Assembly (NCBI RefSeq): GCF_000337195.1
Contig: NZ_AOID01000051.1
Span: 62,001 to 126,000 of the forward strand
Origin: Natrinema versiforme JCM 10478
Lineage (GTDB): Archaea; Halobacteriota; Halobacteria; Halobacteriales; Natrialbaceae
DNA: 64,000 nt
Direction: 5' to 3'
Below the pieces are notes generated by a model. That model saw nothing but the letters and a program-made list of their open reading frames with translations, made no database searches and was not told the origin of the DNA. The position numbers and the translations under genes are program-made. Positions 37,867 through 42,449 of the stretch are shown here, one piece after another (position 1 is the stretch's first letter; each line of letters opens with the position of its first letter).

Positions 37867-39048
37867 TTAGGGGCCCGTGGTCGGCGGCTGCTCGCGCGGG
37901 CCGCCGCCGATCGGGGTCCGCGATTGCTCGGCGGCCGGCCGCTCCGCGAGGGTTACCTCGACGGTCTGGCGCTCGCCGTCGCGGATGATCTCGAGTTCGA
38001 TCGTATCGCCGGGCGACGTCTCGAGCGCGAGATACGACGAGAGCGCCGACTGATTCGGGATTTCCTGGCCGTTAATGGCGACGATCACGTCACCGCTGCC
38101 CGGCCGAGCCGTACTGGCCGGCTGGAGGACCCCGTCGGCGGGGCCACCAGGGACGACCTCCATGACGAGCACGCCGGTCGCCTCCTCGAGGCCGATTTCG
38201 GCGGCGATTTCCGGACCGACGGGCTGGACGCCGACGCCCAAGTAGGCGTGGTCGTAGGAGCCGTCCTCGATGAGCGCGGGCACGACGCGGTTTGCCAGCG
38301 CCGCGGAGATGGCGAAGCCGATGGTCTGGCCCGCACCGGCGAAGACGACGCCGAGTACCTCTCGCTCGAGGCTCACGAGCGGCCCGCCGCTGTTCCCGGG
38401 GTTGATCGGCGCATCGGTCTGGATCGCGGCCGGGATCGAGAAGCCGGTGGGGCTGGGAAGCGAGCGGCCGGTCCCGCTGACGATTCCCTGGGAGACCGAC
38501 GCGTCGAACCCGAACGGGTTGCCGATCGCGAGCACTTCCTGTCCGATGACCGGATCGGACTCGGCGAGCGACAGACCGGCCGCGACGTCGGGCATGTCCT
38601 CGACGCGGAGAACGGCGAGGTCGCTGTAGACGTCAGTCCCGACGATCGAGGCGGCTCGCCACTCTTCGGTACTGAACTGGAGTTCGATGCCGCCCTCGCT
38701 TGCGGTCTCGACGACGTGATTGTTGGTCAGGACGTGTTCGTCGTCGATGACGAACCCGGTTCCGAGCCCGCCCCCGCCGGTACCGGGCCCGCCCGTCCCG
38801 GTGACGGTAACGAGAACGACGGAGTCGATCGTGTCGCGATACACCGCCGTGTACTCGCTGCCCGCTTCGGCCTCCGCTGGCTGGTCCGCCCCGTCCGAGG
38901 CGTTCGAGTCCGCGGACTCGTTTTGGGCCACACCGGCCCCGGAGCCGCCGAGCCCGAACGCCGTGGCCGCCCCGGCTGCACCGAGTACGCCTGTCGAACG
39001 CAGTAGCCGTCTGCGCGTGCAGTGGTCTGGGTCTGAAGTCACGCCCAT
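37867..39048 (-). CDS. HtrA/DegP-type serine protease, Tat-exported
   Basis: A 393-residue S1C protease. The N-terminus has a Tat signal (RRRLLRSTGVLGAAGAATAFGLGG). The trypsin-like triad is present: His in LTNNHVVETA, Asp in YSDLAVLRVED, Ser in NPGNSGGPLVSL. A PDZ domain follows (YLGVGVQPVGPEIAAEIGLE; GSGDVIVAINGQEIPNQSALSSYLA). It would degrade or refold misfolded proteins outside the membrane. The ATG at 39048 is preferred over the GTG at 39054 and fits the TATA-like box at 39065. Confidence 0.94.
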   Translation of the reverse strand: MGVTSDPDHCTRRRLLRSTGVLGAAGAATAFGLGGSGAGVAQNESADSNASDGADQPAEAEAGSEYTAVYRDTIDSVVLVTVTGTGGPGTGGGGLGTGFVIDDEHVLTNNHVVETASEGGIELQFSTEEWRAASIVGTDVYSDLAVLRVEDMPDVAAGLSLAESDPVIGQEVLAIGNPFGFDASVSQGIVSGTGRSLPSPTGFSIPAAIQTDAPINPGNSGGPLVSLEREVLGVVFAGAGQTIGFAISAALANRVVPALIEDGSYDHAYLGVGVQPVGPEIAAEIGLEEATGVLVMEVVPGGPADGVLQPASTARPGSGDVIVAINGQEIPNQSALSSYLALETSPGDTIELEIIRDGERQTVEVTLAERPAAEQSRTPIGGGPREQPPTTGP

Positions 39049-39064
39049 TGCCACCCCGACGAGC

Positions 39065-39073
39065 GATATAAAA
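39065..39073 (-). promoter_or_regulatory. TATA-like box of the HtrA protease gene
   Basis: On the minus strand this reads ttttatatc, about 21 bases before the ATG at 39048. The spacing is slightly short for a leaderless gene, but it is the only strong box near the start. Confidence 0.45.
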
Positions 39074-39141
39074 CGGAGCCCAGCAACAGCCGATCGGTTC
39101 GGGACCGCTCACAACGCGGTCGCCCAGCGCGTCCCGTTCGA

Positions 39142-39795
39142 CTACTCGCTTCGGGCTGCCTCGACGGCCTCGACGAACGACGCCGCCGTCTCTCGGACTC
39201 GATCCATGTCGCCGTCGGCGACGGCCGAATCGTCCACGATGGCACCGCCGGCACCGACCGCCACCGCACCGGCGTCGAAGAAGTCGGCGACGTTGTCCCG
39301 GGAGACACCGCCCGTCGGGATGATGTCGACATCGCCCAGCGGCCCCGCGAGCGCGCCAATGTGGCCCGGGCCGACCGTCGACGCGGGGAACATCTTGAGG
39401 AGGTCCGCGCCGGCTTCCATCGCCGTCACGGCCTCCGTCGGCGTCATGACGCCGGGCGCGACGAGGACGCCGTGACGGTTGCAGGTCCGCACCACGTCCG
39501 CGTTCGTATGCGGCGAAACGACGAACGATGCGCCCGCGTCGATCGCGGCCTGTGCGGTCGGCGCGTCGAGGACGGTCCCCGCCCCGACCACCGCGTCGGT
39601 GTCCGCGAGTTCGCGGTCGACAGCCGCGATCTGCTCGGCCGCGCGCGTTCCATCCGCCGTGATCTCGAGCGCGTCGACCCCGGCGTCGTAAATCGCGCGA
39701 GCGACCGGGACGATTCGGTCCTCGTCGATACCACGGAGGACCGCGACGACGCCGCCCTCGGTGATTCGCTCCCGAACCGCCGCTTTCTCGGTCAT
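39142..39795 (-). CDS. 2-keto-3-deoxy-6-phosphogluconate (KDPG) aldolase
   Basis: A 217-residue class I aldolase of the KDPG/KHG family. It splits KDPG into pyruvate and glyceraldehyde 3-phosphate. GGVVAVLRGIDEDRIVPVARAIYDAGVDALEIT opens the fold. The Schiff-base lysine is in DLLKMFPASTVGPGHIGALAGPLGD, and the final PTGGVSRDN binds phosphate. Length is normal. It is close to the gluconate dehydratase gene, as expected for the haloarchaeal semi-phosphorylative Entner-Doudoroff route. The ATG at 39795 is used. Confidence 0.95.
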   Translation of the reverse strand: MTEKAAVRERITEGGVVAVLRGIDEDRIVPVARAIYDAGVDALEITADGTRAAEQIAAVDRELADTDAVVGAGTVLDAPTAQAAIDAGASFVVSPHTNADVVRTCNRHGVLVAPGVMTPTEAVTAMEAGADLLKMFPASTVGPGHIGALAGPLGDVDIIPTGGVSRDNVADFFDAGAVAVGAGGAIVDDSAVADGDMDRVRETAASFVEAVEAARSE

Positions 39796-40153
39796 TCCGC
39801 TCGCCCTCCCGCGACCGCCGTTCGACGCTCGTTCTCGAGCCGTTCGCTCCGTGTACCGTAACGTTCCATCACGGCGAAGTCCGTGCCGCGCCTTCAATAA
39901 ATTTACTCACGGTCGAAAAAGCGGCCAGGGTCGGTGCCGTTCACTCCTCGAACGGCGATCGGATCCGCGCGAAGTCGGCCGGGGCTATCGGCTTACGCCT
40001 CGTCAAACACCGCCGAGCAGAGCTCGGCGAGCCCGACGAAGCTCTTACGCTTCGTCGAACAACGGAAGACTCGCGATGCTCGCCTTCCGAGCTCGACGCG
40101 GCTTATGCCGCGTCGAACAACGCAAATCAGAGATTTGCTGGCTTGACGTCGGC
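39796..40153. other. Gene-free stretch with a hairpin repeat cluster
   Basis: No gene is seen. The right half is the repeat cluster described separately. The left part carries the promoter side of the KDPG aldolase gene (AT-rich caataaatttactc at 39895-39908, reading outwards on the minus strand). Confidence 0.5.
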
Positions 40154-40171
40154 TTACGCCTCGTCAAAGAG
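39988..40171 (-). repeat. Repeats of the gluconate dehydratase stop region with paired hairpins
   Basis: The 20-base segment tcggcttacgcctcgtcaaa at the end of the dehydratase gene (40149-40168) recurs exactly at 39988-40007. Two diverged copies lie between: cgacgcggc ttat gccgcgtcg (40094-40115) and cgacgaagc tcttac gcttcgtcg (40034-40057), both perfect nine-pair hairpins in which two base pairs have changed on both arms. Each copy is followed by a second hairpin: gcaaatc aga gatttgc (40122-40138), cggaag...cttccg (40063-40089), cgccgagc aga gctcggcg (40011-40029). On the gene strand every unit reads LFDEA-stop or a close variant. Confidence 0.7.
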
Positions 40172-41392
40172 TTCCTCGCCCTCGACCATGTGTTCCTCGA
40201 CGACGTCCATATCGAGCGTGACGCCCAGCCCCGGCTCCTCGGGGATCTCGATGTAGCCGTCCTCGATGACCTCTTCCTCGACGAGGTCCTCCCACCAGTC
40301 GAGTTCGTAGGAGTGGTACTCGACGGCAAGCGAGTTCGAAATGGCCGCACCGACGTGGGACCCGGCCATCGTCGCCACGGGCGAGGCGACGTTGTGCATC
40401 GCGACCGGGACGTAGTACATGTCCGCGAGATCGGCGATCTTCCGGGTTTCGCGCATGCCGCCGACCTTGGGCATGTCCGGCGCGACGATGTCCAGCGCCT
40501 GCTCCTCGATCAGGCGGCGCTGGCCGTGCTTGCGGTAGACGTTCTCGCCGACCGTGATCGGCGTCGACGTGTTCTGCGTGACCTCCCGCTGGACATCGTG
40601 GTTCTCCGGCGGGACGGGGTCCTCGAGCCACCAGATATCGTACTCCTCGAGTCGCTTTGCGAGCCGTTTCGCGCTGCCGCCGGAGAAGGTCCAGTGGCAG
40701 TCGAAGGCGACGTCGGCGCGGTCGCCGACGCGCTCGGTGACCTTCTCGACGATTTCGGCCTTGTGCTCGATTTCGGGCTCGCGGAGGTGGCGGTTCGCGC
40801 GGTCTTTCTCGTGCCCGCTGGGCACGTCGAGATCGAACTTCAGGGCGTCGTAGCCGAGCTCCTCGACGACGCGTTCGGCCTCGTCGGCGCAGGCGTCGGG
40901 GTCGGCCTCGTCCTCGGTGTGACAGTCACAGTAGACGCGGACCTCGTCGCGGTACTTGCCGCCCAGCAGCTGATAGGCTGGTACCTCGAGGATCTTCCCG
41001 GCGAGATCGTGCAGGGCGACCTCGATGCCCGAGATCGCGGTGACGGTGACGCCGCCGATCGAGCCCTCGCCGGACATCTTCTGGACGAGGTGTTCGGTCA
41101 GTCGGTCGATGTCGAGCGGGTTCTCGCCCACGAGGAAGGGCGTCATCCGCTGGATCAGTTCCGGGACGCCCGCGCCCCAGTAGGCCTCGCCGGTGCCGAC
41201 GATGCCGGCGTCGGTGTAGATCCGGACCAGCGTCCACGGGAAGTTCCCGTCGATCATCGTCGTCTGGATGTCGGTGATCTCGACGTCTCGGCCACCGCCG
41301 CGCTCGCCCGTGACACCCATCGTTTCTGCCGAGAGGTCCCGCATCGTGTACTCGGCGTTCGGATCGTGCAACTGCGAGTAATCGATTCCCAT
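40154..41392 (-). CDS. gnaD: D-gluconate dehydratase (enolase superfamily)
   Basis: A 412-residue member of the mandelate racemase/muconate lactonising group of the enolase superfamily. It would dehydrate gluconate to 2-keto-3-deoxygluconate. Metal-ligand segments are VAFDCHWTFSGGS (Asp), IWWLEDPVPPEN (Glu) and TVGENVYRKHG (Glu). The other active-site parts are YDALKFDLDVPSGHEK and VAMHNVASPVATMAG. Closely related haloarchaeal enzymes act on xylonate, so the substrate is inferred from the nearby KDPG aldolase. The promoter box lies at 41414. Confidence 0.88.
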   Translation of the reverse strand: MGIDYSQLHDPNAEYTMRDLSAETMGVTGERGGGRDVEITDIQTTMIDGNFPWTLVRIYTDAGIVGTGEAYWGAGVPELIQRMTPFLVGENPLDIDRLTEHLVQKMSGEGSIGGVTVTAISGIEVALHDLAGKILEVPAYQLLGGKYRDEVRVYCDCHTEDEADPDACADEAERVVEELGYDALKFDLDVPSGHEKDRANRHLREPEIEHKAEIVEKVTERVGDRADVAFDCHWTFSGGSAKRLAKRLEEYDIWWLEDPVPPENHDVQREVTQNTSTPITVGENVYRKHGQRRLIEEQALDIVAPDMPKVGGMRETRKIADLADMYYVPVAMHNVASPVATMAGSHVGAAISNSLAVEYHSYELDWWEDLVEEEVIEDGYIEIPEEPGLGVTLDMDVVEEHMVEGEELFDEA

Positions 41393-41413
41393 GGGTGCTA
41401 ATTCACTCGTAAG

Positions 41414-41426
41414 TTAGTAATAGTTT
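41414..41426 (-). promoter_or_regulatory. TATA-like region of the gluconate dehydratase gene
   Basis: On the minus strand this reads aaactattactaa, centred about 28 bases before the ATG at 41392. It fits a leaderless transcript. Confidence 0.45.
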
Positions 41427-41552
41427 CTACCTGCCGGTAGCGGTCTCGACACCGTCTTCGATCGAGGGCTGGAAACGCGTACCTATGGCTCCACTGCTTG
41501 CAAAAGGTATTGTCACCAGCTCGGGGGTGTCGTTTCTCGTCGTCAGCCGCGG

Positions 41553-42449
41553 TCACTGCCGACCGCTGGCGGATCTCACGCGCTCGAGTTTGTCGCCGAC
41601 CTCCTCGAGATCGGCATCCAGCGCCGACGTCGCGGCGAAGGCCGCCCGCTTCTCCGCGGTTCGGCGCTCGATCGCCTGCGGGCCGACGGCGAATTCGATT
41701 CGGGTCACGCCCGCGTCGGGACTCGAGCCGCCGAGCACCGTGACGGGCCCGACCTCGCGGGTGTTCCGGACGTGGGTGCCGCCACACGCCGAGATGTCCC
41801 ACGGGTTCGTCGGACCGGCCGTCCCGGAGAGACGGTTTCCGCTCCGGTTGTCGTTCTCGTCTTCGATCGTGACGAGGCGGACTCGCCCCTTCCGGACTGC
41901 ACCCGCGTCGGCTGCTCTCTCGGCGTCGAACGCGACCGCCTCGCGCTCGCGGGCTTCCGAAATCGGCACATCGTCCCACGACACCGGCCGCGACTCCCAG
42001 ACGACGCGGTTGACGGCCTCGTCCAGTTCGATCAGCGTCTCGTCGTCGAGGGCCGTCCCCGTCTCGAGGTCGACGCGGACCGTCTCCGGGCCGATTTCGA
42101 GGCCGGCGTAAGCCGCCCCCTCGAGCAGTCGCCGGGCGGCCCCGACGAGGACGTGACTGGCGGTGTGAGCCCGCATGCAGTACATCCGAAACGACCAGTC
42201 GACCGAACAGAGGACGCGGTGGCCCGGTTTGAACGACGGTTCCTCGGCTAACACGTGGACCTGTTCGCCGTCGACGAACTGCACGTCCGCGACCGCGATA
42301 TCGCCGATCGTGCCGCGGTCGGCCGGCTGGCCGCCGCCGGCACCGTAGAAGTGACTGCGCTCGAGCCAGACCCGTCGGCCGTCGATCGACGTCACCTCGG
42401 TCTCGAACCGCGTGGCGTACGGCTCCGCTGCCGCCCGTTGCCCGGTCAT
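41553..42449 (-). CDS. Alanyl-tRNA editing protein AlaX
   Basis: A 298-residue free-standing editing enzyme that hydrolyses Ser-tRNA(Ala) or Gly-tRNA(Ala). FYGAGGGQPADRGTI is the N-terminal glycine motif. The zinc site is MRAHTASHVLVG (HxxxH) plus SACGGTHVRNT (CxxxH). The C-terminus (AIERRTAEKRAAFAATSALDADLEEVGDKLERV) resembles the start of the AlaRS C-terminal coiled region, so this is a medium-length AlaX. It is cytoplasmic and stands alone. Confidence 0.93.
   Translation of the reverse strand: MTGQRAAAEPYATRFETEVTSIDGRRVWLERSHFYGAGGGQPADRGTIGDIAVADVQFVDGEQVHVLAEEPSFKPGHRVLCSVDWSFRMYCMRAHTASHVLVGAARRLLEGAAYAGLEIGPETVRVDLETGTALDDETLIELDEAVNRVVWESRPVSWDDVPISEAREREAVAFDAERAADAGAVRKGRVRLVTIEDENDNRSGNRLSGTAGPTNPWDISACGGTHVRNTREVGPVTVLGGSSPDAGVTRIEFAVGPQAIERRTAEKRAAFAATSALDADLEEVGDKLERVRSASGRQ

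Follow-up and report, generated by a model that had tools for sequence, protein, structure and literature searches.

Why should the last codons of a gene recur, as a row of hairpins with covarying stems, in the non-coding DNA behind it? The question is raised by a minus-strand dehydratase gene of the window (the whole 64,000-nucleotide stretch of Natrinema versiforme DNA analyzed here), whose gene end an earlier note had seen repeated downstream, perhaps as a string of transcript-end structures or a small palindromic element, possibly spread by slippage. The encoded protein carries MR_MLE domains (Pfam PF13378, E 1.4e-62, plus PF02746) and falls below every NCBIfam equivalog cut-off, such that its substrate is not settled by these models and “gluconate dehydratase” is only a likely name. 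The features of the locus are as follows:

40154–41392, minus strand: dehydratase gene (enolase superfamily, gluconate dehydratase-like, 412 aa, C-terminus ELFDEA-stop), from the ORF and Pfam.
40142–40168, minus strand: hairpin A1 at the gene end, TTTGACGAGGCGTAAGCCGACGTCAAG, from sequence and fold.
40122–40138, minus strand: hairpin B1, GCAAATC-TCT-GATTTGC, from sequence and fold.
40092–40117, minus strand: hairpin A2, loop ATAA, reading FDAA-stop, from fold and model R1.
40064–40088, minus strand: hairpin B2, GGAAGGCGAGCATCGCGAGTCTTCC, GA..GA on both arms and a GC-ATC-GC apex, from sequence and fold.
40032–40059, minus strand: hairpin A3, reading FDEA-stop, from fold and model R1.
40011–40029, minus strand: hairpin B3, CGCCGAGC-TCT-GCTCGGCG, from sequence and fold.
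40008–40059, minus strand: the complete unit A3 + B3, from models R1 and R2.
39986–40007, minus strand: A4, the last copy, truncated (left arm and loop kept, right arm lost), from sequence.
39915–39920, minus strand: TTTTTC tract beyond the array, a candidate transcript end, from sequence and a published Haloferax motif.

Read on the minus strand, the array runs from 40168 down to 39986 and comprises three units of ~50 nt, each a hairpin A followed by a hairpin B, and then the truncated A; the copies are direct repeats within the window and are 70–100% alike. At the gene end itself, the left arm of A1 codes for F-D-E-A, the loop GTAA contains the stop codon TAA, and the stem is interrupted (GA..GA). 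The gene-end repeats described in the earlier note are present where it had placed them (copies A1–A4), and its two nine-pair stems (cgacgcggc/gccgcgtcg and cgacgaagc/gcttcgtcg) are exact, with two changes on each arm between them. Two other details of that description stand in part: LFDEA-stop copies downstream are borne out by A3 but not by A2, where Ala replaces Glu, and a second hairpin does lie behind A1, A2, and A3 (with the plus-strand loop aga in B1 and B3), whereas none lies behind A4. A 23-mer around B1 has an exact copy in a distant genome (locus L069). The type of hairpin seen at 40064–40088 of the window, with a GC-N3-GC apex and GA in each arm, is found again at L057, L058, and L059, in other contexts in distant haloarchaeal genomes.

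The array is real and exceeds chance expectation: a 266-nt region folds at z = −5.69, with none of 200 shuffles as good. Units from several genomes align well, at about 50 nt (58 when B is long), in the order hairpin A (TTYGACGARGC-GTRA-GCYTCGTC-like), a linker close to GGCTCG, a variable hairpin B, and, directly against the next unit, a CGGTG-like tail. In 26 such units, picked by hand from several genomes, 91.6% of stem cells are paired, 11 pairs are changed on both sides, and covariation reaches 0.42 against 0.16 for shuffled and at most 0.10 for slid pairs; as the structure was derived from the same 26 units, this mainly confirms that the arms change together. A covariance model trained on dehydratase units with the coding end included (R1) recovers the three window units at E values of 4e-14, 1e-13, and 3e-12, all three being members of its training set. 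A second model (R2), built from 12 non-dehydratase units of mostly 51 nt (one of the 12 training rows has a wrong last base through a typing error), matches the window unit at 40008–40059 (G000:C51:102008–102059) with E = 8e-6 in a search of the whole genome and, having been trained without dehydratase units, provides independent support. We consider it probable that the window units belong to a haloarchaeal palindromic repeat element, here arrayed locally in tandem.

Matches to R1 (E ≤ 0.001) occur in 145 of 293 haloarchaeal genomes, spanning 49 of 87 genera. A dehydratase gene ends at the match in all of the best 30 loci; the next 20, read by eye, include 17 behind a dehydratase end, one at a partial dehydratase (L116), and two at other genes (L102, L114). 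Among the 150 matches listed, which come from 33 genomes chosen for having R1 hits, 135 lie within 450 nt of a dehydratase 3′ end (125 sense, 10 antisense, the latter being readings of the same palindromes as sense matches) and 15 lie elsewhere. In these hit-selected genomes, 55 of 61 dehydratases of at least 70% identity have a unit, against 3 of 36 more distant ones. This concentration is partly ascertainment, since R1 was trained on dehydratase units and their coding end. When loci were instead fetched through the dehydratase protein alone, 35 of 80 had an array (counted by hand from the match table), with matches on the sense strand at or just behind the dehydratase end, and 45 had no match. 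A reading in which the unit is exclusive to the dehydratase was dropped, as units were found at other genes and dispersed. At L116 (G234:C1:1234300–1238400), the dehydratase keeps its first ~49 residues and its last ones, followed by a unit, and has apparently lost its interior. At L114 (G188:C2:362200–366300), another gene has a unit at its end (..YLVFDGA-stop), ~440 nt upstream of a same-strand dehydratase. At L023 and L024 (genomes G011 and G016), the array runs into a common tail (..CCGGYATAACAGTATTGG..), perhaps the end of a mobile element.

Array presence is no more clustered on the dehydratase tree than shuffled labels are (a quick tree of 81 proteins requires 25 changes, against a shuffled mean of 26.6, with 146 of 500 shuffles reaching a count as low). 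The branches between Haloferax larsenii and H. elongans have zero length, yet only H. elongans has one extra unit, between identical flanks, with the former gene end now a non-coding copy behind it. Together, these observations indicate that the arrays turn over fast, although the Haloferax difference could be a gain or a loss by recombination between direct repeats. Arrays do not change the C-terminus more often, FDEA being found at 29 of 35 array loci against 28 of 45 others (p = 0.05, in the opposite direction). Copy number also varies: genome G015 has the three units of the window and one more in front, and genome G181 has three identical 59-nt units. The spread by slippage proposed in the earlier note is to this extent upheld as a change in copy number; slippage alone is insufficient, because the same B hairpins are found across families and similar units at other genes.

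The array could also be a functional 3′-UTR element of the dehydratase mRNA, selected as RNA to protect the 3′ end or to tune translation termination and expression; we regard this as unlikely but worth weighing. The hairpin row is present in many families, and in most of the 35 array loci (among the 80 unselected ones) matches start at the gene end, as such an element would have it. Against this stand the 45 of 80 dehydratase loci without a match and the unclustered presence on the tree, as well as the orientation of relatives inside genes, which are mostly antisense, such that RNA from the host gene would not form the same fold.

The stems themselves can be examined by strand, on the premise that RNA selection should leave G-U in excess of A-C intermediates on the sense strand. 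We scored 141 matches (after removal of nine antisense ones), giving 65 first and 75 later distinct units, with related rows counted uncorrected and with counts that are not independent of R1, which favors its own loop and pairs. At the eight inner pairs of stem A, G-U to A-C is 8:7 in first and 12:8 in later units, and this evenness gives stem A the look of a stem copied or corrected at the DNA level. At the six inner pairs of stem B, the ratio is 9:7 in first units and 15:1 in later ones (p = 0.0005), a skew that leaves room for selection and fits selection on the sense strand over neutral DNA copying. The A loops, later copies included, are mostly GTAA, GTGA, or GTA, loops that would also suit stable GNRA or GNA-type apexes, and these too speak for an RNA element. 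Later, non-coding copies keep the stop as fifth codon in 63 of 75 cases and FDEA in 50 of 75, which can be credited to RNA selection and would also follow from sequence exchange between these copies and the gene end.

Transcript termination is a role that the earlier note had suggested, and here the locus does not comply: no unit precedes a T run, and T5C occurs only beyond the array, at 39920–39915. Three terminator-like sites were found in 38000–42000, none of them in the array, and a sigma-70 promoter scan likewise returned nothing there. An intrinsic or T-tract terminator was rejected, there being no T run directly behind any hairpin, and the array is not ordinary termination. T5C is a T-tract type shown to terminate in Haloferax volcanii, as given in excerpts of PMC7237163, which also describe terminators that, like the array, lie downstream of genes with hairpins near some 3′ ends; the window units differ in lacking a T run, with T5C beyond them. 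By analogy, T5C at 39920–39915 would end the transcript and the array more likely lies within the 3′ UTR than at its end, where an effect on the dehydratase mRNA is possible. A scan of 39500–40600 against Rfam gave five matches up to E 5, all far below the gathering score. A CRISPR array was rejected, given copies 70–100% alike and a best Rfam CRISPR match of 15.8 bits against a cut-off of 39.

In the window's own genome, a single-mismatch pattern search made only the array and its paralogue stand out, the rest resembling coding look-alikes. Weak R1 matches away from dehydratases, in turn, led to dispersed twin hairpins, and R2 (E ≤ 0.03) finds 62 copies in G090, 53 in G277, 23 in G292, and 21 in G048, along with several dehydratase arrays. 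Across the phylum, R2 matches (E ≤ 1e-4) are found in 15 of 196 genomes, all 15 of the haloarchaeal order (161 matchless genomes are not itemized). Among the non-dehydratase R2 matches listed, 125 of 146 have a length divisible by three, a tally that leans toward 51 because R2 was trained mostly on 51-nt units. Reading two sets of sites by hand placed 14 of 20 and 6 of 7 in frame within long coding frames, in hosts whose translations look MutL-, GluRS-, TrpC-, BioD-, acyl-CoA dehydrogenase-, and histidine-kinase-like by eye. In 19 of 20 in-frame sites, the element is antisense to its host gene and contributes peptides like DADEQSSSSPRSASPRED; the dehydratase units are sense-oriented. Many dispersed copies have CGTC ahead of them (by eye). 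A direct-repeat autocorrelation test over 30 dispersed sites, tandem arrays included, gives a mean of 9.15, against 7.75 for permuted flanks (sd 0.60), a weak to modest signal that the highest of 500 permutations surpasses.

Several of these sites deserve separate mention. Histidine-kinase-like genes at L180–L182, L185, and L189 have tandem in-frame units at the N-box (NAVEHGSTSPRSASPREDAVEHG), with the host motif AVEHG repeated. Acyl-CoA dehydrogenase-like genes of two families (L123 in G090, L130 in G170) have an in-frame unit at apparently the same site. In the window's genome, a BioD-like gene carries a sense-oriented, in-frame unit of 45 nt (L194, G000:C35:16427–16471), which G015 shares.

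Filled and empty versions of the same site can be compared at two genes. In the GluRS (tRNA-synthetase) gene, read at 16 of 30 fetched loci, a 45-nt insert is present in G164, eroded in G131, absent from 13 of 16, and unclear in one. At the end of a narH-like gene (31 loci, by eye), 13 have clear units, six irregular ones, five are bare, and seven have no visible unit; at the five bare junctions, the gene end overlaps the start of the next gene. The narH-like unit has near repeats of GGTGTTCGACGATG on either side, and at L155 and L165 a gene-specific stretch of 13 nt reappears in the inverted arm, indicating that the arms of hairpin A follow the host gene. These arms would be either target-derived or later corrected to match it. 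The dispersed relatives are thus found as in-frame repeats in otherwise conserved genes with empty orthologues, in the manner of Rickettsia palindromic elements (RPE); the window's copies do not lie inside a gene. The “small palindromic element” of the earlier note is borne out: the unit is a repeat family, polymorphic for presence and absence, whose relatives are dispersed.

What moves such units? They could be non-autonomous elements mobilized by an IS200/IS605-type (Y1, HUH) transposase, comparable to bacterial REPs or the 52-bp terminal-only PATEs of Haloquadratum, an explanation we hold to be quite improbable. Paired palindromes of ~50 bp would suit it, as would the presence of Y1 transposases in 15 of 20 haloarchaeal genomes, and the excerpted sources add that core deletions leave PATEs of 52 bp that are suggested to be mobile (PMC3119063), and that REPs sometimes lie within ORFs and supply the stop codon (PMC3733652). 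However, unit copy number does not follow Y1 transposases (PF01797, 20 genomes): the unit-rich genomes G048 and G226 (21 and 11 R2 matches) have no Y1 match, and G181 presents the reverse, with nine Y1 and two R2 matches. The variable-length target repeats are also unlike IS605-type elements, which, in the portion of PMC3119063 drawn upon, make no target duplication. No transposase or other mover was found for the units. Local slippage only, which would involve no element but a tandem duplication of the gene end and palindromes grown from replication errors, is highly improbable: every unit does contain a near copy of the gene end, and the identical units of G181, the block duplication of G015, and the direct repeats in the window accord with it, but different families, narH-like genes, and the interiors of other genes show the same B hairpins and linkers, and the match of R2 to the window array weakens it.

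The reading we favor is a palindromic repeat element. Its units occupy dehydratase 3′ ends and a narH-like gene end, with relatives of other stems scattered and often in frame in genes. Where a unit meets a gene end, the left arm of A supplies the last codons and its loop the stop codon, and a near copy of the gene end stands behind each unit, giving the order T, loop, inverted copy T′, hairpin B, and T again. We think that units are gained or lost where the sequence resembles their own end (in the window, TTGTTCGACGA) and might then multiply or shrink via recombination or slippage between the direct repeats. Likeness between the arms would be maintained mainly in the DNA itself, as arms and units copy or correct one another, and the coding constraint on the gene end may feed back into the copies. 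We infer insertion rather than only loss, a target preference, and correction between arms; presence and absence can as well be explained by loss between direct repeats as by gain.

A bolder proposal, possible if rather doubtful, is that the units form a distinct archaeal class of mobile palindrome, one hairpin of which is built from the target (T, loop, inverted T, conserved hairpin, T), each event leaving that order behind, such that the element writes a palindrome of the site it enters, rewrites gene ends (the stop codon being moved into the loop so formed), and spreads in frame within coding genes with no transposase of known family. Should the element reading hold, a class of ~50-nt palindromic elements, widespread in haloarchaea yet little described, would be supplying proteins with short hydrophilic peptides and remodeling the ends of genes. 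Closely related species show the dehydratase site empty, filled, or with several units, and this would make it a ready system for studying palindrome spread, and for addressing whether covarying stems must mean selected RNA structure, a point that bears on RNA discovery.

In the open-access literature searched, we found no description of a haloarchaeal twin-hairpin element. By resemblance, the array is akin in kind to RPE and REP/BIME elements, with no claim to family membership. PATEs and SMRs of Haloquadratum walsbyi are likewise transposase-free haloarchaeal mobile repeats with palindromes, as excerpted from PMC3119063; PATE ends are IS605-like, whereas the haloarchaeal unit, compared by description only, showed no link to IS605 ends. 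REP/BIME elements (GTAG- and CGTC-tagged palindromes) share with the units short stem–loops, covarying stems, single or clustered occurrence, and a position near gene ends; in the sections of PMC3733652 used here, CGTC repeats are reported from bacterial phyla, and REP/BIMEs are mostly HH or TT dimers, whereas the haloarchaeal unit is a head-to-tail pair of unlike hairpins with the stop codon in a loop rather than in the GTAG foot. RPE, and with them the palindromes in protein-coding genes of Wolbachia and Methanocaldococcus jannaschii, compared here by description only, differ in host and, for RPE, in length (105–146 bp, against about 50 nt with two hairpins), and the haloarchaeal units form tandem arrays overlapping the stop codon; yet, in the excerpts of PMC2229807 and PMC2996958, these too are short palindromic repeats that lie between genes and also in frame inside conserved protein genes.
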